IMG/VR virus record: IMGVR_UViG_3300046373_000062
Location: 1-42,969 of that record
Strand: one strand, 5' to 3'
Source: a virus
DNA length: 42,969 nucleotides
Positions 6,797 through 35,714 of the stretch are shown here, piece after piece; the stretch's first letter is position 1, and each line of letters starts with the position of its first letter. Under the pieces are notes generated by a model. It was not told where the DNA came from and searched no databases. It saw only the letters and a program-made list of their open reading frames with translations. The position numbers were made by a program, and so were the translations under genes.

Positions 6797-8455
6797 ATGA
6801 AGACACCAGCAGAAGAAGTAGGCTTTGTCGTCGGCGGTCAATACAGGTTACAAGATGAACATAACACCTTTAATTTTTCCGCCGGAACTACGCTGACATT
6901 TAACGAAGACGATGGTAGTATCAACCCCTGGTTTATACAAGACGACCCAAATGACCGCTGGCCGATTGAACTAAGTTATTTCTTTAAAACAGGACAAACA
7001 AAACTAACACAGGAACAAATAGATATGGCATGGACAGAGATAGAAGAATTCAAGCCCGGAGATAAAGTTTCAACACCTCACGGTGACGCTAATGTTATTC
7101 AAGCCTATGAAAATAATATTACTTACGAAGTACCAGGCGGCTGGAGATACAATGAAGGCAGGTCACGAATTAAGAAGATCGAAACACAGGGAGAAAAACA
7201 AACAGAAGAAAAAGGAGAAAGAGTGGAATTTACTACAGAAGATATTGGCAAATCTGTCAAGAAGAAGAAAGATGGTAAGCTTGGCAAGATTGTCGATGTT
7301 AACAGCCGAAACGTCCGCGTTGAATGGCAAACCGGCCTGAAAGAAAGCATCAATAAAAAAGAAGCTCATAATCATATTGAGAAAACCGAAGATCAAGCTA
7401 AAAACGAAGAGAAGGCAGTCGAGCAAAAGACCAGCAACATGGCTGATAGTATGTTCGCCCTCCTCGAGGTAGAGCGCAAGGTCCGAGAGAAGATTGACGA
7501 AAAAGTAGACGAAGGCCTGAAAGAAATCAAGGAAATCGCTGAGTCAAAGCGTACTCTTGAGATTAAAAAGGGTGATGAGACCCGTGAAGTCAAGGGTACG
7601 AAGCACAAACAGCTCGAACAACTCATTGAATATGCGGCAGCTCGCCTTAACCCACTTCTTGTTGGTATGGCCGGTACAGGTAAGACACACGCCGCAGAAC
7701 AAGCCTCAGACGCTCTGGGACTCCGCTTCTTCTCCATCTCAGTAGGAGCACAGACCACGAAGACAGATATTATGGGGTATATGTCAGCCAACGGTGACTA
7801 TATCTCGACCCACTTCCGTGACGCCTACGAGAATGGTGGTATCTTCCTCATGGACGAGATTGACGCTGGTAACGCGAACGTCCTCATTACCATCAACGCA
7901 GCTCTATCGAACGGTATCGCGGCTTTCCCAGATACAATGGTAAAGAAGCACGATGATTTCATCTTTATCGCTTCAGCAAACACCTTCGGGAACGGTGCTA
8001 ACCGCCAGTATGTCGGCCGTAACCAGCTTGACGCCGCTACTCTCGACCGCTTTGCAGTGATTGAATGGCTGATCGACGATGATCTAGAGCGTTCACTAGC
8101 TCGTGGCGAACAAGGCAACGCATGGTATGAAGCAGTTAAAGAAACTCGTAAGTATGTTGCTGATCGTAGCATCCGGGCCCTTATCAGCCCACGTGCTACA
8201 CAAAAGGGCTCACTACTCATCTCACTGGGTAAAAGCGCAGAGGAGGCCGCTAACGCCACTCTCCTGAGCTCCGTACCAGAAGATAAGAAAGCGGACATAC
8301 TGAAGATTGCGCTCGACGTCTTTAACAGGAACCTAATCCCAAAAGGTAAAGCCAAACCTGCTCAAGCACCAAAGAAGAGCAGTGAGGGCATTGCAGTCCA
8401 GGGTAATGTAATATTTGGCGGTGGTATTGGCACCCTAGGGAGCTTACCCTTCTAA
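6797..8455 (+). CDS. MoxR/CobS-like AAA+ ATPase
   Basis: A 552-residue protein. The N-terminal third has two small SH3/KOW-like barrels (GDKVSTPHGDANV... and DIGKSVKKKKDGKLGKI), a charged helical linker follows, and the AAA+ module begins near residue 270: Walker A GMAGTGKT at about 290, Walker B IFLMDEID at about 350, sensor ASANTFG, and an arginine-finger-type LDRF. This is the MoxR/CobS clade, whose members remodel or load cofactors into partner proteins. The next gene, coupled by TAATG, is the likely partner. An internal start site at 7223 may yield a shorter form. Confidence 0.8.
   Translation: MKTPAEEVGFVVGGQYRLQDEHNTFNFSAGTTLTFNEDDGSINPWFIQDDPNDRWPIELSYFFKTGQTKLTQEQIDMAWTEIEEFKPGDKVSTPHGDANVIQAYENNITYEVPGGWRYNEGRSRIKKIETQGEKQTEEKGERVEFTTEDIGKSVKKKKDGKLGKIVDVNSRNVRVEWQTGLKESINKKEAHNHIEKTEDQAKNEEKAVEQKTSNMADSMFALLEVERKVREKIDEKVDEGLKEIKEIAESKRTLEIKKGDETREVKGTKHKQLEQLIEYAAARLNPLLVGMAGTGKTHAAEQASDALGLRFFSISVGAQTTKTDIMGYMSANGDYISTHFRDAYENGGIFLMDEIDAGNANVLITINAALSNGIAAFPDTMVKKHDDFIFIASANTFGNGANRQYVGRNQLDAATLDRFAVIEWLIDDDLERSLARGEQGNAWYEAVKETRKYVADRSIRALISPRATQKGSLLISLGKSAEEAANATLLSSVPEDKKADILKIALDVFNRNLIPKGKAKPAQAPKKSSEGIAVQGNVIFGGGIGTLGSLPF
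7208..7225 (+). promoter_or_regulatory. Internal ribosome-binding site and GTG inside the AAA+ gene
   Basis: AAAAAGGAGAAAGA directly before an in-frame GTG at 7223 (codon 143). The site matches the phage's best early ribosome sites. Use of it would give a ~410-residue ATPase without the first SH3-like barrel. Confidence 0.45.
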
Positions 8456-11040: not shown

Positions 11041-11114
11041 GTACAACGGGTGGACTCGAACCACCGACTTCCGGGTTTGACGCCCGGCGCTCTAGCCAAC
11101 TGAGCTACGTCGTA
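11041..11114 (-). tRNA. tRNA with anticodon UCA (UGA-reading?) and unusual G33
   Basis: Full cloverleaf: acceptor TACGACG/CGTTGTA with one G-T, D-stem GCTC/GAGC with GG in the loop, anticodon stem CCGGG/CCCGG, T-stem GGTGG/CCACC with loop TTCGAGT. The 7-base anticodon loop is CGTCAAA, so by standard numbering the anticodon is TCA (34-36), which would read UGA. Position 33, nearly always U, is G. CCA is not encoded. Identity is uncertain; it could be an opal-suppressor-type tRNA, or one not active as an elongator. Confidence 0.7.
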
Positions 11115-26606: not shown

Positions 26607-26895
26607 TATCGTACTCCTCGAGAGCCTCCTCGAGCTTACCTTTGTAGTTCTCATCAGCAAGAATCTGAATCGACTTAAGGAGCCGCTGATTAGCCCGTAG
26701 CCAGGCGTTTTCAGCGACGTATCCTAAGTGGTCTTTAACATACTTGTCACTAGTAATCTTACGGAGCGACTGGTTGACATTAACGGCGAGTAGTTCTTCT
26801 AGGAGTCGGCCGTGTTCTGTGTCGAAAAAGTGTGCGGCTTTAAGCGCTTGGCTGAGTTGCTTCTGGAGCTTGAGTTGTTTGCTGTCCGTTTCCAT
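26596..26895 (-). CDS. Hypothetical helical protein after the portal
   Basis: A 99-residue all-helical product overlapping the end of the portal gene by 56 bases. Ends with an acidic helix (GKLEEALEEYDNGF). No family recognised. Its last codons overlap the start of the next small gene. Confidence 0.65.
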   Translation of the reverse strand: METDSKQLKLQKQLSQALKAAHFFDTEHGRLLEELLAVNVNQSLRKITSDKYVKDHLGYVAENAWLRANQRLLKSIQILADENYKGKLEEALEEYDNGF

Positions 26896-28867
26896 TAGGG
26901 GTGCTTCCTGGGGTATTTCCTGTTAAATATTTACCATGTGCGTTGCCGTGTTGCATCGCTTCAGTGATTGCGCCAAGTTGGTGAGTCGGGCTTGGTTGGA
27001 GGCCAAACATCTGTTCAATCTGGGCTTGGACATCTGATGGAGCATCTTTATAGCTGAAGTTCAGGAGTTCCTTTGGATCACGTTGTTGATTGTCTTGTGG
27101 GATCTGAACACCACTATCAAGGAGGTAGCGTTCGACATCGCGTCGGCTGAACAGCTGAGCAGTATCTTCTACCATTGCAGTAAAGTTAAAGCGTGGTACG
27201 TCCTGCGGTGTTTTGAAGACACCAGCTTGTTCGATAGCGGCTTTCTGGATAAGGAGCATGTCTTGGATGAAACGGTCGTTAGCGTCCATCTTGTCCTGCT
27301 TAGACAGTGGCACCATCGAGTCATCATCAATATCCAGTTCAAGTTCACCTTGGTAGTCGCTTGGAACTACAACATCAGGCGTTTGCTTACCATTGACACT
27401 ACGGCGAATTTCTTGTGGATCATCTGAGAACTGTTGGAGGTTTGATAGCCAGATGCGGCCGACAACCTTCATAGACTGCTTGAAGTTATCACGGAAGAAA
27501 CCAATCTTTGTGGTAGCGGCTTCAGTGATAGTGCGGACACCATAGGCGGTACCCTGTGTCTTGTCGTTGCTATCATTCGGATTACCTGTCGCATAAGGAC
27601 TAAAGGTAGCTGAGTCGATACCCTTCTCAAGGACGTTCATGACAACCGATAGCTGTTGTGGGTTTGGTTCAGGGAACTTAAACTGCTTAGGAGCCTCACC
27701 GGTATAGGTAACTTCTCCACCTGGTTCGATGATGAAGTCATTGGTGAGGGTACCATCTTCGTACATCAACATAGACTCAATAGAGAGGTTCCAGTTATCG
27801 AGGTAGTGATTAAACAGGTCGTTTGTGGCACTCTGGAGAGTACGGTTATTTTCGAAGAGTGATTCACCAAATGGCGAGAAGCTTTTGCGGCGGCAGTAGA
27901 ATGGAACGAGTGGGAAGAAGTCGTGCCAGTATGGGACGCTTGGTTTGCGGATTTCGACCCATGGTTTGCTTTCAGAGTCGTTCTCAGAGGTGCCATCAAC
28001 AGCTAGACCTTCTGCATAAGTAGTCAACACAATGCCATCAGCGGTGCGTTCGTAACACTCGTAATACGTGACCATATCTACGGTATCATCCATTGCAACC
28101 ATACTGAGCTCGTTGATAACACGGTCACGTGACTGGTTGTAAAGACTGAACTCATCGACTGGTTCGCGAGGGCCGGTGTCTACAGAGTCGAGGTTCTCGT
28201 AAAGGCCAGAGGCTTCCATGTCAACTAGGGGCTTATAACCACGGACAATAACGTAAGGAGCCTTAAAGAAGCTAGGAGCATCAGCAACGAACACATTAAA
28301 GTAGTTGACTGGCTCGAATCCGTTATGGCCGGTTTGTTGCGTCTTCTCGACGTAATTCTCGTTATCCATGTTACCTTGCTCATCAAACTTGCGGGCAAAG
28401 GATTTCTTCTCTTGGAACTCCCATGGAACGTAAGCGTAGCCAGTACCAGCAACAACAGCGTCAACGAGTGGATCGAATACCTTAAGCTTCATTGGCTCTT
28501 CGTGAGCACACTGGTAGTCATAAGCAAGCTTAGCTTCGATACGTGAAGCACGGTCGCGAACGGCCTGAGGGATGGTGAAGTTACCACTCTCATCAATTTC
28601 AATCTCGTTATTGATCGTCACCTGGAAGTCAGGCACGACGTTGGACATGTGTGAAATAAGGTCCCACGCCTTGCTCGCGAGAACAGGGACATAGACTTTC
28701 GATTTCCATGGAGAGATTTTCTGGCGGTCGAACGACGCATACATGATATCGTAGTACTTAGCGGCGTCCTCGAACATCTGGCGTTGCTTGATTTTTCGGT
28801 TCTCAAAGCGCTGTTGCCATGTAGAAGCAGAAGTATATTTCTTCTCTCCCTTTTTATTTTTAGCCAT
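26840..28867 (-). CDS. Portal protein
   Basis: A 675-residue protein with the podoviral portal pattern: basic helical N-terminus (TWQQRFENRKIKQRQMFEDAAKYYDIMY), KSKVYVPVLASKAWDLISHM, a central region with DPLVDAVVAGTGYAYVPWEF, the long crown-stem helices near 430-480 (TEAATTKIGFFRDNFKQSMKVVGRIW), and a Gln/Pro/Thr-rich C-terminus. The dodecameric ring is the DNA gate and docks the terminase and adaptor. AAGGAAAATAA precedes the ATG; it has its own promoter. Confidence 0.85.
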   Translation of the reverse strand: MAKNKKGEKKYTSASTWQQRFENRKIKQRQMFEDAAKYYDIMYASFDRQKISPWKSKVYVPVLASKAWDLISHMSNVVPDFQVTINNEIEIDESGNFTIPQAVRDRASRIEAKLAYDYQCAHEEPMKLKVFDPLVDAVVAGTGYAYVPWEFQEKKSFARKFDEQGNMDNENYVEKTQQTGHNGFEPVNYFNVFVADAPSFFKAPYVIVRGYKPLVDMEASGLYENLDSVDTGPREPVDEFSLYNQSRDRVINELSMVAMDDTVDMVTYYECYERTADGIVLTTYAEGLAVDGTSENDSESKPWVEIRKPSVPYWHDFFPLVPFYCRRKSFSPFGESLFENNRTLQSATNDLFNHYLDNWNLSIESMLMYEDGTLTNDFIIEPGGEVTYTGEAPKQFKFPEPNPQQLSVVMNVLEKGIDSATFSPYATGNPNDSNDKTQGTAYGVRTITEAATTKIGFFRDNFKQSMKVVGRIWLSNLQQFSDDPQEIRRSVNGKQTPDVVVPSDYQGELELDIDDDSMVPLSKQDKMDANDRFIQDMLLIQKAAIEQAGVFKTPQDVPRFNFTAMVEDTAQLFSRRDVERYLLDSGVQIPQDNQQRDPKELLNFSYKDAPSDVQAQIEQMFGLQPSPTHQLGAITEAMQHGNAHGKYLTGNTPGSTPNGNGQQTTQAPEATQPSA

Positions 28868-28960: not shown

Positions 28961-29323
28961 CTATGTAAGGTTCATACCAAGACGTGCGGCAATCTCGTCT
29001 GTTGTCGTCATCCAACTTGTGTGATGGATAGCCTTGTCATCTATGTAAAGGTCAGCCATTGGCTTCTTACCAGTGACTTCAGAGACACGGACCATATGGC
29101 GTTGACACCATTCAATAATCGTCTGGCGGCCTACGTCGCTAGTTGCTCGGGCGCTAAAGATGATGAGTCGAAAACCTTTATTAGCTAGAAAGTCCATCGT
29201 ATCGAGTGCATCAGGGAGTGGCTTCTTCGTCACTGGGTCAGCGAGTACCCCGTCAAAGTCAATAGCAATCGTAGCTTTTGGTGCAGCTGGTCGCTTCTTT
29301 TTAGGTATAGGAATTGCCTTCAT
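28961..29323 (-). CDS. HAD-family phosphatase
   Basis: A 120-residue single-domain HAD hydrolase: nucleophile motif D22-x-D24-GVL, motif II S58ARA, and motif IV D95D96 in LYIDDKA. Small phage HADs of this size usually act on nucleotide or polynucleotide phosphates. Starts in a TAATG overlap with the methyltransferase gene, suggesting a linked pathway with the methyltransferase and glycosyltransferases. Confidence 0.8.
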   Translation of the reverse strand: MKAIPIPKKKRPAAPKATIAIDFDGVLADPVTKKPLPDALDTMDFLANKGFRLIIFSARATSDVGRQTIIEWCQRHMVRVSEVTGKKPMADLYIDDKAIHHTSWMTTTDEIAARLGMNLT

Positions 29324-30009
29324 TACTTATAATAGACGCAGATTTGTTCGCCAACCTGGGTCATCTCCTGGATGCGGGTTTCGCCAATCTCTTTAGGCAT
29401 TGACGTAGCCTTACGAATGTGTCCAAATTTGTTTTCTTTTTCATAGTCCTCTGGTTGCATCGTATAGAGACGGATGTGACAGGTATTCTGCTCATCATCA
29501 AGCCCATAGATAGGACCCTCGAATTCAGGGGTAGAGAGGAGTACTGAGCCGCCTGGAGCCAGAACTTTGTCAATAAGCTTGAGTAGCTTAGGCACATCCT
29601 CGACGTGTTCGATTACTTCAAATAGGGTGATAACATCGAACTTCTTTTTCTGACGAGCGAGCTGGGTGAGTATTACTTCAGCTGATCCTTGCTCGAATTT
29701 TGCGGGCAGATCACCTGTCCTCTCCTTTGCAAGTCTGATTCCATCCACCGATAGGTCGATTCCCATGACGGTAGTTTGGAGCTTCCGAGCAACCGTAAGT
29801 GCAAATGAACCATCAAGACAGCCAATGTCAAGGAGATTCTTTGGTCCAATCGCCTGTATATGGTCGATAGCCCATTTAAATCTTGGATAAACTGTGTCCA
29901 CGCTTGTTGCAAGGTCTGCATCAATCGGACGAAAGAAGTGGTTCTCATAAAATTCCTCGTAGTTGTCTGGTGTAAAATTCTTATCGTTCTTGTTCTGGTC
30001 CCCTTGCAT
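29323..30009 (-). CDS. SAM-dependent methyltransferase (class I, UbiG-like)
   Basis: A 228-residue protein with Rossmann motif I LLDIGCLDGSFA (D61), acidic motif II GIDLS, motif III DVITLFEVIEHVEDVPKLL, and LAPGGSVLLSTPE. Substrate unknown. Neighbours (glycosyltransferases, HAD) suggest modification of a glycan, nucleotide or virion component. AAAGGACGCCTTA precedes the ATG, inside the end of the preceding gene. Confidence 0.8.
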   Translation of the reverse strand: MQGDQNKNDKNFTPDNYEEFYENHFFRPIDADLATSVDTVYPRFKWAIDHIQAIGPKNLLDIGCLDGSFALTVARKLQTTVMGIDLSVDGIRLAKERTGDLPAKFEQGSAEVILTQLARQKKKFDVITLFEVIEHVEDVPKLLKLIDKVLAPGGSVLLSTPEFEGPIYGLDDEQNTCHIRLYTMQPEDYEKENKFGHIRKATSMPKEIGETRIQEMTQVGEQICVYYK

Positions 30010-30211
30010 TAAGGCGTCCTTTCTTCATATCTGTACGCATTTTCTGTAGCATCTTCCGGCGAATAGGGCGTGGAATATGTACTGGTACTAGTTGGCGTTT
30101 TCCATCTGGGCCAAATTCACCCTCTGGCAACATAGCCAAGAATGGCCGGGTGAATTGTTTCTCTTTTTCTGGTTGCTCTTTACGAAGCTGTCGTGCTACT
30201 CGTCCGTTCAT
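29981..30211 (-). CDS. Small basic protein
   Basis: A 76-residue Arg/Lys-rich product (MNGRVARQLRKEQPEK... RPIRRKMLQKMRTDMKKGR), overlapping both neighbours (32 and 29 bases). GGAG seven bases before the ATG. Probably nucleic-acid associated by composition; no family recognised. Confidence 0.6.
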   Translation of the reverse strand: MNGRVARQLRKEQPEKEKQFTRPFLAMLPEGEFGPDGKRQLVPVHIPRPIRRKMLQKMRTDMKKGRLNARGPEQER

Positions 30212-30773
30212 TGATCTTCTCCTTGATTACGTTTGACCATTGTTTTGCGACATCAGCCCACGATGTATTCGGGACTGGTGTACCTGTTCGCTTTTCCCTG
30301 AGGCCAGCCACGACTGCGGCAATGAACTCAGCTTGAGCATCTTTATCTTTTGAAATGTTCTGTGAGTCTATCTTGCGTCCGCTCTGAACCGTCTCTGCGA
30401 GTGCAGCAACAGAGGTGACGACTGGATAACAGCCTGCTTCCTGGGCCTTAAGTGCGGTGATACAGTGGATTTCTTCGAACTCAGTTGGATACGCCCATAC
30501 CTGTGTTTCTTGCATTGCCTTGGCTAGTTCTTCGTGTGAGACCCGGCCATGGACGGTAACGCCCTGATCTTTAAGCTGTTCAAACTTCTCCTCCATACGG
30601 AAGTAAAAGTCATCTTCGCCTTGGATAGCAACCCAGCTTTCCCAGCCGTAGTAGACGTCTAGCGTCGCGTCCGGGACATGTTCACGGATCGTAGGCCACA
30701 TATCAAGTAGGGTCTCAAGGCCGCGATAGTATGCACTAAAGTAACCAACACTGTTAGTCTTCTTTTTTATCAC
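30180..30773 (-). CDS. C-terminal half of a GT4 (GT-B) glycosyltransferase
   Basis: A 197-residue product that corresponds only to the nucleotide-sugar-binding Rossmann domain of a GT4 enzyme: SAYYRGLETLLDMWPTI, PDATLDVYYGW, VTVHGRVSHEELAKAM, and the E-x-E...E nucleotide-binding segment near residues 98-112 with AYPTEFEEIHC...EAGCYPVVT. The N-terminal acceptor domain is absent and is instead found at the end of the protein at 32453-34120, beyond GroEL. Start is a GTG at 30773 overlapping the GroEL end by 20 bases. It probably works with that protein as two chains. Confidence 0.75.
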   Translation of the reverse strand: MIKKKTNSVGYFSAYYRGLETLLDMWPTIREHVPDATLDVYYGWESWVAIQGEDDFYFRMEEKFEQLKDQGVTVHGRVSHEELAKAMQETQVWAYPTEFEEIHCITALKAQEAGCYPVVTSVAALAETVQSGRKIDSQNISKDKDAQAEFIAAVVAGLREKRTGTPVPNTSWADVAKQWSNVIKEKINERTSSTTAS

Positions 30774-32322
30774 TGTCTTCTTCCTTTCGGGCGATAAGTA
30801 CGCCAGCCGTTAGTGCTGAACCAGCAACAGAGGTAGCGTTCAAGACAGCCTGTTTAATAACGAGTGCAGGGTCGATGATACCGTGTTCCTTTAGGTTGAC
30901 TGGTGTTTCAGGGTCGCCCATGATATCATAGCCCATACCAAACTCAAAGCCTTCAAGCTGTTTAAGCTGAACACCATAGCGAAGTCCGGCATTTTCCATC
31001 AGGACCTTGAATGGTGCCTTGAGCGCTTCACGAAGGAGTTTATCACCGTCGCTATCGCCAAGTAGTTCAGATGCAAGACGGATATAGGTCATACCACCAC
31101 CAGGAACAACACCTTCTTTGAGTGCGGCCTCTGTCGCGGCAACAGCGTCATCAATGAGGTATTTACGCTCTTCAGCTTCCATTTCAGTGTTGCCACCAAC
31201 ACGGATTTGGCCAACCTTAGCTCGCAGTTGTGCAATACGTTTTTCAATCTTACTGCGGTCGAACTCAGTCTTTGTTTTGTCTAGCTTAGCTGATAGGTCG
31301 GTGATGTATTCAGTAACGTCCCTACCGCCAGTAATAATCGTTTCCTCAGGGGTAGATACGATTTCTTCGCAAGTACCAAGTTCTTCTACGGTAATGTCAG
31401 TAATCTTCTTCTGGAATTTTTTACCAGTAACTTCAGTACCGGTGAATGCCGCGAGGTCACGGAGTAGTTCCATACGTTGTTCGCCAAATCCAGGCGCTTT
31501 AATGCCGATGACAGTAAACTCATCAATATGGCTTAGTGACCACTGAAGAAGGTCTTCGCGGAAGTCATCAGCGATGATAACGAGTGACGAGTGGCCGAGG
31601 TTGAACAGTTCGTTCGTCAGGGCGATAGTATCTTTCAGGCCAACAGTCCCGTGGTAAAGCAGGATGTGAGGGTGTTCGATACGGGTAGTCTGGGTGCGCT
31701 GGTCGAGAATCATCATTGGGCTTAGAAGTCCTTTATCGAATACGTAGCCTTCGACAATTTCATACTCAGTCGCAGGTTTCGTACCGAGTTCGACGACAAC
31801 CATACCATCCTTACCTAAGGTGTGGTACATTTCGCCGATTTTTTCACCAATCTCTTTGCTTTCACTTGAGATAGTAGCGATTTCTACCGCAGCTTTCTTG
31901 GTTTTAATCGGTTCAGCGAAGCGTGGGAGTGCATCTAGAACAGTTTCCGCAGCTTTGTCAAGTTCACGACGAAGCATCATTGGGTTTTTGCCGTTCTCAA
32001 TCATCTGCATACCACCACTCATCAGGTGATAGGTCAGAATAGTCGAAGTGGTCGTTCCATCACCTACATTATCATTCGTTTTGCTCGAGCTTGACTTAAT
32101 CATCTCGATACCAATTTCAGCGCCAGGTGAGAGTCCATCGACATTTTCGATTGACTTAGCGACAGTCACGCCGTCATGGGTAACAATCGGTGCGCCATAG
32201 GCACCAATGAATGCATTCTGGCCTTTTGGACCGAGCGTCGTCGATACAGCCTCGTAGAGAAGCTTTGCGCCGTCTAGCAGCTGTTCTTTGGCTTGTTTGC
32301 CAGTGATTACAACCTTCTTCAT
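30754..32322 (-). CDS. groL: GroEL-like chaperonin
   Basis: A 522-residue chaperonin from the ATG at 32322 (GCAGGTGA upstream, TAATG overlap with the preceding small gene). A TTG at 32343 would add seven residues but is unlikely. Family motifs: TTLGPKGQNA, the ATP loop VGDGTTTSTIL, and GVVPGGGMTYIR. The C-terminus ends KEEDSDKKED without the GGM tail of cellular GroEL. No GroES gene is visible, so it would use the host co-chaperonin or none. It probably folds virion proteins. It sits between the two halves of a glycosyltransferase. Confidence 0.9.
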   Translation of the reverse strand: MKKVVITGKQAKEQLLDGAKLLYEAVSTTLGPKGQNAFIGAYGAPIVTHDGVTVAKSIENVDGLSPGAEIGIEMIKSSSSKTNDNVGDGTTTSTILTYHLMSGGMQMIENGKNPMMLRRELDKAAETVLDALPRFAEPIKTKKAAVEIATISSESKEIGEKIGEMYHTLGKDGMVVVELGTKPATEYEIVEGYVFDKGLLSPMMILDQRTQTTRIEHPHILLYHGTVGLKDTIALTNELFNLGHSSLVIIADDFREDLLQWSLSHIDEFTVIGIKAPGFGEQRMELLRDLAAFTGTEVTGKKFQKKITDITVEELGTCEEIVSTPEETIITGGRDVTEYITDLSAKLDKTKTEFDRSKIEKRIAQLRAKVGQIRVGGNTEMEAEERKYLIDDAVAATEAALKEGVVPGGGMTYIRLASELLGDSDGDKLLREALKAPFKVLMENAGLRYGVQLKQLEGFEFGMGYDIMGDPETPVNLKEHGIIDPALVIKQAVLNATSVAGSALTAGVLIARKEEDSDKKED

Positions 32323-32456
32323 TATTTTGTCACCTGCGTCCAATCATTAAGTTGTAGGTTCCAGTAATAAAGCATATTGTCGTTGCCAAGTCCGTAAACT
32401 AGACCGTTCGGGCTAACAGCGATCTGTAGGATGGTTGGTGTGGTTGTTGGTGTCAT
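32322..32456 (-). CDS. 44-residue tectonin/propeller-blade-like protein
   Basis: A short gene with a full AAAGGAG site seven bases before the ATG, coupled on both sides: ATGA with the glycosyltransferase stop and TAATG with the GroEL start. The product contains one blade-like unit, ILQIAVSPNGLVYGLGNDN then LYYWNLQLNDWTQV, as in tectonin/beta-propeller repeats. It may be a remnant or a real small partner of GroEL or the glycosyltransferase. Confidence 0.65.
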   Translation of the reverse strand: MTPTTTPTILQIAVSPNGLVYGLGNDNMLYYWNLQLNDWTQVTK

Positions 32457-34120
32457 TTTACATCTCCTTTGAATTGTTCTTTTGCAATACCATTTCCAAC
32501 AATCTGGAATTTGGCGTCTGGGTGTTTATCGGCGTATAAGTCGGCATGGAATTTAGACTTGACCATGTGAATTACCTCTGGGTCGGTGCTAATCATCTCT
32601 TGTGGGATGATATCGTGAACGTCCGCGAGTTTTACGCGGGCTTTGACTGTATCAAGGAAAGTAGGAGCTCGCCAGGCTACAAAGACATTGAAGTTGTCAC
32701 GGACGTCTATCTCCTTCCACGGAGTCCAGATAACGCCATCGACATTCATTCGTTCAGGTACTTCGCCAAATACTGTGACATTGTATCCTAGCTTTGCAAG
32801 CTCTGGCGTCAAGTAGACGATAGCTTCTTCTGAGCCACCCATACCCTTGCCGAGTGTTTGCGGACCCCATTCTTCGTAGCCCTCTCCACAGAAGATAACG
32901 ATGCTCTTAGAGTCCCACGTCTTCGCTGGTGTTGCTATATTACGCAATGCACGAAGCCTTTTGTCAAACTTCATGTCTGGTACAAGAGCATTCCATAGGG
33001 CAGATTCACTGGTAAAGAATTTGCGGACCTTTGGCAACATCTTAATAAATGTCTCGGCGTCAGCTTCTTCGATAAACCCTTCCATCAAATCCTGAGCGTA
33101 TTCGTTCTTCGGAATGAGTCGGAGCCATTGAAGTGCGTTATTATAGTTCTTCAGCATAAACTCCGCCTGTGCAGCAACGAGGATAGCTCGTTCGCGGCCA
33201 GTTGGGTCCCAGATAGTGAGAGTCGCTGGGTCCGGTTTAGCAACAGACACCTTCACCCATTCGAGTGCTTCTTTCCATTGCTCTTGGTCGGCACAGTATT
33301 GTGCGAGGAGCCAATAACCCATCGGGTAAGCTGGGGTGTGGACAGTTGCTTTTGTAGCGTACTCGAAAGCGAGCGGGTAGTTCTCAAGCTTATAGGCAGA
33401 TTCACTAATGAAGTTAAGTGCCCGGTAGACGTCATCACGATTGCCTGAGCGTGGAATGAACTCCATAAATTGTTCAATACACTTCTCGTAATTGCCTAGT
33501 GAGAAATTCGATCCGGCGAGGTACATCAGATAGCGTTCGTCATCTGTTGCGGCGTATGCCTTTTCAAGAATCTTATAGTTGCGGAGGCCTGAGGTTTTGG
33601 GATGGTCGGCATCAGTGTGATGGATAACCATTGGGCTTTCCATGACGTGTGACACTTTAGGCTTCTCGATAATGAAAGTTTCGTGCACCCATCCCTTCCA
33701 AGCACCACGAGTTCTCTTGACAAGTCGCTCTCTTGAGTGTTTAGCTATACAATTTCCTTGGTCGTCTTGTGCGTAGTTGTACGGCAAGAAGATTTCGTCA
33801 AGGTTATTTGCCTCTGCTAGCGACACAAGTTCAGGTATAGTGCTGAAATCAAAAAAATCGTCAGCATCAATCCAAAAGCAGTAATCAGTAGTAGACTTTG
33901 AGAAGTTTGCATTGCGGGCCTCATCGAAGCGGTCAGTCCACTTCCTATAAAATACATTGATATTCGAGTGGTCTTTGACGTACTGGGTGAGCTCAGCGGC
34001 CGTTGCCTTATCTGATACGGTAAGGTTAATCTGGTCGAAGAACTTGTAAGCATTGGCAATGATGGTTTGGACATTCTCCAACTCATCTTTTACTATCATC
34101 TGAAGGCTTACTGTTGCCAT
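32453..34120 (-). CDS. GT2 glycosyltransferase fused to TPR and GT4 N-terminal domain
   Basis: A 555-residue three-part protein. Residues 1-~160: GT2 (GT-A) domain, SLQMIVKDELENVQTII with the D85-A-D87 metal site in FWIDADDF and WVHETFI. Residues ~180-380: TPR-like helical repeats. Residues ~405-555: the N-terminal Rossmann domain of a GT-B/GT4 enzyme (IVIFCGEGYEEWG, GMGGSEEAIVYLTPELAKLGYNVTVFG, VFVAWRAPTF, KSKFHADLYADKHPDAKFQIVGNGI). The chain ends at the usual interdomain linker; the matching C-terminal domain is encoded at 30180-30773. Likely adds sugars to a surface, virion or DNA target. Ends in TGA. Confidence 0.8.
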   Translation of the reverse strand: MATVSLQMIVKDELENVQTIIANAYKFFDQINLTVSDKATAAELTQYVKDHSNINVFYRKWTDRFDEARNANFSKSTTDYCFWIDADDFFDFSTIPELVSLAEANNLDEIFLPYNYAQDDQGNCIAKHSRERLVKRTRGAWKGWVHETFIIEKPKVSHVMESPMVIHHTDADHPKTSGLRNYKILEKAYAATDDERYLMYLAGSNFSLGNYEKCIEQFMEFIPRSGNRDDVYRALNFISESAYKLENYPLAFEYATKATVHTPAYPMGYWLLAQYCADQEQWKEALEWVKVSVAKPDPATLTIWDPTGRERAILVAAQAEFMLKNYNNALQWLRLIPKNEYAQDLMEGFIEEADAETFIKMLPKVRKFFTSESALWNALVPDMKFDKRLRALRNIATPAKTWDSKSIVIFCGEGYEEWGPQTLGKGMGGSEEAIVYLTPELAKLGYNVTVFGEVPERMNVDGVIWTPWKEIDVRDNFNVFVAWRAPTFLDTVKARVKLADVHDIIPQEMISTDPEVIHMVKSKFHADLYADKHPDAKFQIVGNGIAKEQFKGDVK

Positions 34121-34408
34121 TTAGTCGTCTCGCTTTTTACGGTTTTCATTTACTACCCGGTTGACAATCTTGAGAGATCGTTGGTAGCTTTTCAGGTTTC
34201 CTGTGGCTTTTCCGAGCCGCCACTCAGCTTCTAAGTTGGTGAGCTCTGGAGTGTTGACAAACACTAGAACTTCTCGTTTGTAATCGTTTGGGTCTTGTTT
34301 AGACCCGACAATCTTCATACCGTTGTAATGCAGAAACGCAGCATACGGTGTGTCAGAAGTCTTGTATGGTTCGAGCTTAGTTAAGGGCTCGTCCGGTATC
34401 TGGATCAT
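34121..34408 (-). CDS. DUF5659-like hypothetical protein
   Basis: A 95-residue product. Start at the ATG at 34408 (AGGA upstream), overlapping the TerL stop by 32 bases; the longer open frame upstream is antisense-like sequence within TerL. The pattern YKTSDTPYAAFLHYNGMKIVG...VFVNTPELTNLEAEWRLG...YQRSLKIVNRVV resembles DUF5659, often found near phage packaging genes. Function unknown. Confidence 0.65.
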   Translation of the reverse strand: MIQIPDEPLTKLEPYKTSDTPYAAFLHYNGMKIVGSKQDPNDYKREVLVFVNTPELTNLEAEWRLGKATGNLKSYQRSLKIVNRVVNENRKKRDD

Positions 34409-35714
34409 AGTATCGCTTCCTTTTTTCGCGTTGCACTGGCTTTGCTCGGTCGATAGCCAAGTATCGAAGGGCGTCCATTGCGTGATTATTTTTATCTTCA
34501 GGGACGTTGGTGATTTCGCCGTACTGGTCTCGAATCCACGAGTAGCTTTCGAACTCACGGATGGTGTTCTTGCACTTAGCGTGGATGAACAGCTTCGGCT
34601 TGCCCGTACCTTCGCGGATTTTAATGAGGGATTGCACCTCTTTAATACCGTTAAAGATAGAGTCAGCACCTTTCTTACCGGCAGTAATGCGGAAGCGGCG
34701 AGCTCTTAGTGATTCAAGTTCGAACCGGGCAGCACCGTCACCGATAATGCGGGTGAAGTGGTCAGACCCCATCTTGTCTCGAAGGACATAGACCAGTTGA
34801 TCGAGGTGTAAGTCTTGTTGGTAAATCTCGTCATAAATCCACCAGTTGCCGTCATAGTCAAGCTTGACAAGCACTGCGGCCGTTGGGTCAGTCATACCGA
34901 AGTCGATTCCCAGAGCAAAGGTTCCGTTAACTGGCATATCATTAATGTCATGGAAGACGTGTTGTTTGTGGTCAAATTCACCGTAGATAAGTTGCGTAGG
35001 GTTGGTAAACTCAGCCATCCACTCCTGGTTGAATTGGTCAAGCTTGCCTTCTTTTTCGTACTCACGGCGGGTTTGGTCGAACTCTTCTCGAGGGAAGTAG
35101 TCGTTGTCAAGTGCAGTCGCATGAGAGTAGTAGTACATCTCAGGGTCGTTTTGTGCAGTCTGACAGAGGTCGAAGAAGTGATTATAGACACCATTCGGCG
35201 TGGAAATAAAGATAGCCCATCCGTTACGGTCAGATAGGGCAGGACGAATAATCGTATCATAGAGATACTTACCGTCGTTCATGAAGGCGAACTCGTCCAT
35301 GACAGCACCAGAAATACCAGTACCACGGAGTGAGTCTGGGTTATCGGCACCTTTTAATTCAATACGAGTAGGGGGAAGGTCTGGGTCATGGTTAATCGTA
35401 ATAGGACCGGCCTGGGTTTCAATCGTGATTCCCGTCAAATGGTCAAAGGTAATAGACAGTTCTTGTTCGTTGAACGTCATAAAGTCACCCTTGTAGCGCT
35501 TACAGATATCACGCCAATAGATTGACTTAGCCTGTTTGTAAGTTGGGGCGATGATGTAATATGTACCTTGGCGGAGCATTCCCTCGAGCACGACCTTTTC
35601 CCAGACGGCTACGGATTTACCAGTACGGCGTCCCCAGTTGAGAACTTTGTAGCGGTGTGCATCGGCCAGGAAATCTTTTTGCTTCTGATGAGGATTCGGC
35701 AGTATTAACGCCAT
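34377..35714 (-). CDS. terL: Terminase large subunit
   Basis: A 445-residue packaging motor. ATPase: Walker A G28RRTGKS34, Walker B VMD140E141FAF, coupling motif FISTPNG. Nuclease: D271 in LGIDFGMTD276P, with further acidic residues toward the C-terminus (HAMDAL). It cuts and pumps DNA into the procapsid through the portal. First gene of the late block, behind its own promoter; the small subunit lies ~4 kb away at 39927. Confidence 0.92.
   Translation of the reverse strand: MALILPNPHQKQKDFLADAHRYKVLNWGRRTGKSVAVWEKVVLEGMLRQGTYYIIAPTYKQAKSIYWRDICKRYKGDFMTFNEQELSITFDHLTGITIETQAGPITINHDPDLPPTRIELKGADNPDSLRGTGISGAVMDEFAFMNDGKYLYDTIIRPALSDRNGWAIFISTPNGVYNHFFDLCQTAQNDPEMYYYSHATALDNDYFPREEFDQTRREYEKEGKLDQFNQEWMAEFTNPTQLIYGEFDHKQHVFHDINDMPVNGTFALGIDFGMTDPTAAVLVKLDYDGNWWIYDEIYQQDLHLDQLVYVLRDKMGSDHFTRIIGDGAARFELESLRARRFRITAGKKGADSIFNGIKEVQSLIKIREGTGKPKLFIHAKCKNTIREFESYSWIRDQYGEITNVPEDKNNHAMDALRYLAIDRAKPVQREKRKRYYDPDTGRALN

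Follow-up and report, generated by a model that had tools for sequence, protein, structure and literature searches.

The locus described here, in which a chaperonin gene stands between the two halves of a phage glycosyltransferase (GT), lies in an IMG/VR virus record of 42,969 bases, hereafter called the window. Four genes of the minus strand, GT-N, orf44, groEL and GT-C, follow one another between the large terminase gene on one side and the portal gene on the other (table 1), and their junctions consist of an ATGA (GT-N/orf44), a TAATG (orf44/groEL) and a 20-nt overlap (groEL/GT-C). The order and coordinates of the four ORFs and these overlaps agree with the first-pass annotation of the locus, which further proposed that a single chaperonin cassette had been inserted at a domain boundary and had left a GT-B enzyme in two chains. 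The likely start of groEL is the ATG at 32322, which shares 1 nt with the stop of orf44; the listed start is a TTG upstream, at 32343. GT-N terminates with the residues ...FQIVGNGIAKEQFKGDVK followed by the stop (its chain end is given as ...GNGIAKEQFKGDVK in the feature list) and GT-C, which has a GTG start, encodes a protein opening with VIKKKTNSVGYFSAYYRGLETLLDMWP. The position of the neighboring SAM methyltransferase is kept by synteny in the groEL relatives and in many intact relatives. Elsewhere in the window, a tRNA-like gene on the minus strand (11041-11114) has the anticodon UCA and is called tRNA-SeC by ARAGORN, yet it is only 74 nt long with G at position 33; it is a possible opal suppressor. 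TGA stops occur in only 3 of the 39 listed window ORFs, GT-N being one of the three, and long read-through of a TGA was seen in no gene.

Table 1. Features of the split glycosyltransferase locus and its flanks (window coordinates)
Feature	Coordinates	Strand	Description and basis
Large terminase, upstream flank	34377..35714	-	Synteny; annotated so in relative MW202497
GT-N chain (555 aa)	32453..34120	-	GT2 ~36-128, TPR ~184-300, GT4/GT-B N-terminal Rossmann domain from ~398; Pfam/PHROG
ATGA stop/start overlap, GT-N/orf44	32453..32456	-	Sequence
orf44, 44-codon gene	32322..32456	-	Conserved small family; homologues in other loci
groEL (522 aa from ATG 32322)	30754..32322	-	Cpn60, group I-type; Pfam/PHROG
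groEL/GT-C overlap, 20 nt	30754..30773	-	GT-C GTG start; AAGGAAG-like SD inside groEL
GT-C chain, GT4/GT-B C-terminal Rossmann domain	30180..30773	-	YPTEFEEIHCITALKAQEAG motif; Pfam Glyco_trans_1_4 6e-11
SAM methyltransferase beside GT genes	29323..30009	-	Pfam Methyltransf_23 9e-20; synteny
Portal protein, downstream flank	26840..28867	-	Synteny; annotated so in relative MW202497

The two GT genes are best understood from their uninterrupted counterparts. Single-ORF homologues with matching synteny are present in L029 (753 aa), L045 (761 aa) and L054/L056/L059/L061 (735-745 aa), and the intact ORFs of the sister phages (L029, L045, L027/L061, L054, L056, L059) are collinear with GT-N followed by GT-C, with neighbors matching those of the window, namely a small gene before and a methyltransferase after; the portal proteins of several of these phages are 47-51% identical. 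GT-N aligns collinearly with residues 1-565 of the intact L029 protein and GT-C is 62% identical to its C part, so that both GT-B domains are found among the window genes by alignment to intact homologues. The earlier view of GT-N as the N-terminal domain of a GT4 enzyme captured a domain that is indeed there, including its GMGGSEE motif, but it was incomplete, since GT-N is a full GT2-TPR-GT4N protein; Pfam matches it with Glycos_transf_2 (2e-11) and TPR, and weakly with Glyco_transf_4 at residues 427-486 (0.07). A side observation concerns the L029 terminase (411-1865), which is far from that of the window (E 6e-13) even though the GT, the methyltransferase and the portal that flank it show close similarity; the terminase may have been exchanged.

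The position of the cut was examined on structural models; the structure job did not include rows L007 and L008. In the AF2 model of the intact L029 protein (mean pLDDT 89), residues 412-753 form a GT-B fold of two Rossmann domains and a linker (VIA-align Z 29.5 with MshA and 27.6 with PimA), and the cut falls in the short coil between the last helix of the N domain (561-564) and the first strand of the C domain (574-578). GT-C alone is predicted to be a compact Rossmann domain (pLDDT 92), its model matching PimA and the isolated C domain of glycogen synthase. By homology, GT-N and GT-C are one GT2-TPR-GT4 glycosyltransferase cut at the GT-B interdomain linker. The proposal of a single GT-B enzyme in two chains, divided at a domain boundary, is therefore borne out by the intact homologues and by the coil in the L029 model: full-length collinear genes exist uninterrupted in related phages, the halves are not always separate genes, and the C-terminal piece does not come from a GT family other than that of the N-terminal piece. 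In the classical E-x7-E motif of GT4 enzymes the first Glu is kept and the second is replaced by Lys (EIHCITALKAQ) in the split and intact rows examined; because intact relatives share it, this Lys appears to be a trait of the subfamily and not a consequence of the split.

The layout with groEL between the halves recurs in ten distinct phage contigs, the window included, which derive from independent metagenomes and from the complete circular genome MW202497. That nine other distinct phage contigs share the gene order, and that the single-ORF homologues are collinear, indicates that the window layout is more than chance. These contigs form one clade (support 100/99) whose nearest neighbors in the 39-row tree, L054/56/59/61 and L029/45, are intact, and every relative of the window groEL found at 59% identity or above sits between GT halves. 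The N chains of the clade stop 0-8 residues past GNGIxxxQF and the C chains begin 5-13 residues ahead of SVGYF. The groEL/GT-C overlap is found in 9 of the 10 contigs, with identical phase; in the remaining one, L009, another ORF separates groEL from GT-C, and a groEL-GT-C fusion by frameshift, to which the constant phase might have pointed, was set aside given this intervening ORF. The GroEL protein is a group I-type Cpn60 (Pfam 5e-47) that aligns over its full length with solved GroELs, and its ATPase-site motifs GPKG, DGVTVAK, GDGTT and DDA are invariant in the alignment of the ten members; in the phage collection, its identity to GroELs from beyond its own clade does not exceed about 35%. 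No gene for GroES/Cpn10 was found in the window record, and a host GroES could serve the window GroEL. No endonuclease remains in the gap of the groEL clade. Directly after the portal gene of L001 lies an ORF (7898-8227) resembling, by eye, an endonuclease VII/HNH protein, and MW202497 has a recombination endonuclease VII annotated in a comparable position.

The gap between GT-N and groEL is variable. It contains orf44 in the window, L004 and L024, a small helical-looking ORF plus orf44 in L001 and L003, the small helical-looking ORF alone in L012 and L014, HExxH-type ORFs in L007 and L009, and nothing in L013. The HExxH-type ORFs are at 5353-5643 in L007 (LLHEILHAIN; no Pfam family matched) and at 5729-6016 in L009 (LIHEVIHALN). 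orf44, which has no Pfam or PHROG match, belongs to a family with the consensus xIIQIxxxxxxxYGLGxDGxLYYWNxxxNDWTxV and with homologues in L001, L003, L004, L024, L078 and L079, and weaker ones in L065 and L100. Its homologue is the sole cargo in L078/L079 (E ~1e-13), from whose gap groEL is absent, and a match to the family is lacking in five of the ten groEL contigs (L007, L009, L012, L013, L014). Because of this variable gap content, orf44 and groEL are to be seen as genes that occur independently and not as the one cassette that the first-pass annotation made of them. The family keeps to the vicinity of this GT, though not to one position, for an orf44-family gene lies right downstream of the intact GT gene in L100 (8299-8406) and at the end of the GT-C gene in L065 (1758-1868). 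A possible homology of orf44 with the second small ORF of the L063-type inserts was discarded despite their visual likeness, since profile comparison gave it 1% probability.

Splits at this linker are also found in further lineages. Viral contigs were scanned with the C half, the N half and a second subfamily, and the loci retrieved, mostly on metagenomic contigs, were sorted by HMM. Fifty distinct loci of the first set are intact, being single ORFs with linkers of 3-16 residues, and no cut was found along the N chain between the GT2, TPR and GT4N domains (73 loci). The cargo of the split loci comprises two small ORFs (L058, L060, L062-L064), these two ORF types with a DNA methylase (L057, L066), one small ORF (L065, L155), small ORFs (L149), an unassigned ORF of 170 aa (L134) and a SAM methyltransferase (L157). 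An O-methyltransferase or a FkbM methyltransferase, two kinds in all, is in frame with GT-C (L165/168/169, L166), and the fusion adjoins a separate GT-N. Splits free of cargo have an ATGA overlap of N and C in L151, L152, L161, L164, L167, L170, L174, L189 and L191, and a longer overlap in L077, L083, L159, L190 and L193. HNH endonucleases occupy the gap in three separate lineages, L069 (with NUMOD3), L160 and L180. The HNH gene of L069 ends with a repeat of the GT-N end (KWHRDNVSKLPEEKVFITSNGL vs NWHRENIDHVLREKIFVTSNGI), with 23 of 33 nt matching against a background mean of 9.8 (sd 2.5); the repeat looks like flanking target sequence that was carried along, and L069 is a single case, no such repeat being seen by eye in L180 or L160. 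The sister of L180 in the 103-row tree is the intact L140, and of all the cases this pair points most cleanly to an endonuclease as putative cutter. Bacterial genomes yielded only two weak loci as a source of the GT, and no host was inferred.

How often the state changed was estimated from two trees. The 39-row bootstrapped tree has 7 changes between split and intact (6-7 across bootstraps), and the 103-row quick tree, with 38 split and 65 intact rows, needs 9, of which the starred branches force 8; these changes may be splits or re-fusions, since the counts do not separate gains from losses. In AU tests, for which the groups were named after inspection of the tree, a single origin of the 20 main-group splits was rejected (p 4e-4), as was the grouping of the groEL clade with the small-ORF clade (p 1.6e-55). 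One split clade of seven members in the 103-row tree has no cargo in four of them and an HNH gene, an O-methyltransferase and FkbM in the others, which on this topology means that the cargo turned over while the split persisted. Judging from these phylogenies, the linker is a gene-in-gene slot that has been used repeatedly; one isolated accident would not give this pattern. The claim of an inserted chaperonin cassette stands insofar as groEL and the 44-codon gene do lie between the halves; as the origin of the split, a single cassette insertion is not supported in the form proposed, in view of the loose association of orf44 with groEL, the lineages split by other cargo or by none and the at least 8-9 changes of state.

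Selection on the halves was evaluated by dN/dS in pairs with unsaturated dS only, namely L062/64, L063/64, L060/62, L078/79 (N only) and L004/13 (C only), and overall the ratio of the split halves was 0.05-0.10. In the small-ORF clade the N halves gave 0.08-0.09 and the C halves 0.05-0.09; the L078/L079 N half gave 0.075 and, within the groEL clade, the L004/L013 C half gave 0.096. An intact pair had 0.061, and GroEL 0.095 in its one measurable pair (L001/L003). dS was saturated in the comparisons of the window's GT-N, GT-C and GroEL, and the groEL-clade pairs tried gave the same outcome for their N halves; the argument for selection in the window is therefore one of conservation only. Across the groEL clade the C parts have a mean identity of 76% vs 58% for the N parts, the C:N divergence ratio is 0.59 vs 0.87 in the intact sisters, so that the C domain is not relaxed, and the EIHCITALKAQ motif is kept. 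Both halves of the split genes look constrained, purifying selection being visible mostly in the other split lineages, and because of this a two-chain enzyme is most likely.

The explanation that we consider quite probable as a whole combines a repeated cut at the linker, two constrained chains, a slot for exchangeable cargo and groEL as a passenger. A GT2-TPR-GT4 gene, a single ORF in sister phages, would have been cut at the GT-B linker into two ORFs that are both apparently translated, either by the insertion of an endonuclease or by a small change leaving a stop that overlaps a start; some of the cuts, at least, would probably be the work of HNH homing-type endonucleases. Non-covalent reassembly of the two chains into the GT-B cleft is most likely, and the cut junction would then offer an insertion slot within a translationally coupled operon, where further insertions would be harmless and genes could come and go. 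GroEL is best read as cargo, a passenger that the ancestor of the groEL phage clade would have acquired. Of this, the layout, the homology, the recurrence, the selection on both halves in the measurable pairs and the place of the linker on a model are observed, while we infer the heterodimer, the translational coupling, homing as the cutter, the dispensability of groEL for the GT and the sequence of steps by which the groEL clade arose. In more general terms, we lean towards the view that the GT-B linker is a recurrent site of splitting and cargo docking in phages: the enzyme would tolerate the two-chain state, endonucleases would cut at the linker, and the coupled gap would take up auxiliary genes such as chaperonin and methyltransferases, let them be exchanged and at times see them joined to the C half. 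Because the GT sits among packaging and head genes, our guess is that its target is a virion or host-surface glycan.

Within the groEL clade the split might have arisen differently, by the insertion of groEL itself at the linker, with or without orf44. We regard this as a tentative possibility, since all members of the clade are split and their nearest neighbors intact, no groEL-free split is seen inside the clade and groEL directly abuts GT-N in L013; but in other lineages the split has orf44 as its sole cargo or none at all, no mobility function is known for groEL and the style of overlap is alike whatever the cargo. The absence of groEL from the gap of many split relatives, and the exchangeability of the cargo, also make it unlikely that groEL is functionally linked to the GT by folding the two-chain enzyme or its virion substrate, with the nested order kept for dosage. 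Such a link would fit the order kept in all ten groEL contigs, nine of them with the groEL/GT-C overlap, and the lack of GroES in the window makes a dedicated client conceivable.

We give very little credence to a rejoining of the halves by intron splicing, a split intein or programmed frameshift or bypass. No Rfam intron or other RNA element was detected in the window (gathering threshold) or in 11 related loci (E 0.5), the Pfam scan of the window proteins returned no intein family, the inserts are coding genes without relation to one another whose starts and stops overlap, and L009 has an extra ORF between groEL and GT-C; in favor, the overlaps of L077/L083 place C in the +1 frame of N, where a frameshift is conceivable. 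A decaying gene, of which the C half would be a relic and the enzyme dead, is highly improbable in the light of the low dN/dS of the split halves where measurable, the higher identity of the C part across the groEL clade, the retained motif and the start and SD-like sequence that GT-C has of its own, even if a split resembles a first disabling event.

Reports of split enzymes in phages have presented them as exceptions linked to homing endonucleases, and our literature search found no description of a split phage glycosyltransferase. Here one tree holds a series of states, namely intact, empty cut, endonuclease, small ORFs, methyltransferases, chaperonin and cargo fused to the C half, which makes it possible to test in what order these states arose and how well a GT-B enzyme tolerates being cut. 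It also carries a warning for annotation, since GT halves get called two unrelated glycosyltransferases.

Among known systems, phage-encoded GroEL without GroES has been reported, for example EL gp146 (PMC7185714), which the window resembles in having a phage Cpn60 and no co-chaperonin gene found, and from which it differs in that its groEL sits inside a split gene. In the intact homologue, residues 412-753 share their fold with MshA, PimA and sucrose-phosphate synthase (Z 27-30, VIA-align), which are single chains, whereas here the fold is joined to GT2-TPR and divided at the linker. GT-B enzymes with N and C domains on separate chains, as here, are represented by Alg13/Alg14 and EpsE/EpsF, which have the active site between the chains and for which splitting and re-fusion are known; according to the parts of PMC8993221 drawn on here, these are GT1/GT28-like with one ancient split proposed, whereas the present enzymes are GT4 with many splits, and the variable cargo between halves seen here is not described for them in those parts. 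Endonuclease-associated exchange of cargo at fixed sites recalls the HEG-islands and the nuclease genes at exchange boundaries (PMC10448857), unlike which most cargo states here are without an endonuclease. The nearest parallels, together with Alg13/Alg14, are the split genes reviewed in PMC2988022, which include T4 gene 60/39 with mobA, the split gene 43 of phages 25/44RR, the split topoisomerase genes of T4-type phages and nrdA of the Aeromonas phage Aeh1, which is split by mobE and reported to retain function as two chains. As in Aeh1 nrdA, a single-ORF phage enzyme gene has become two ORFs with a gene between them, and as in the endonuclease insertions of that review, stop and start overlap and HNH genes are found at this linker in L069, L160 and L180. 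The two-chain state, reported to work in Aeh1, is predicted here from sequence and models; and unlike Aeh1 nrdA, the window has a chaperonin as cargo in an insert holding orf44 and groEL only, with no endonuclease, and many lineages share a cut at this one linker, their cargo being exchangeable or absent.
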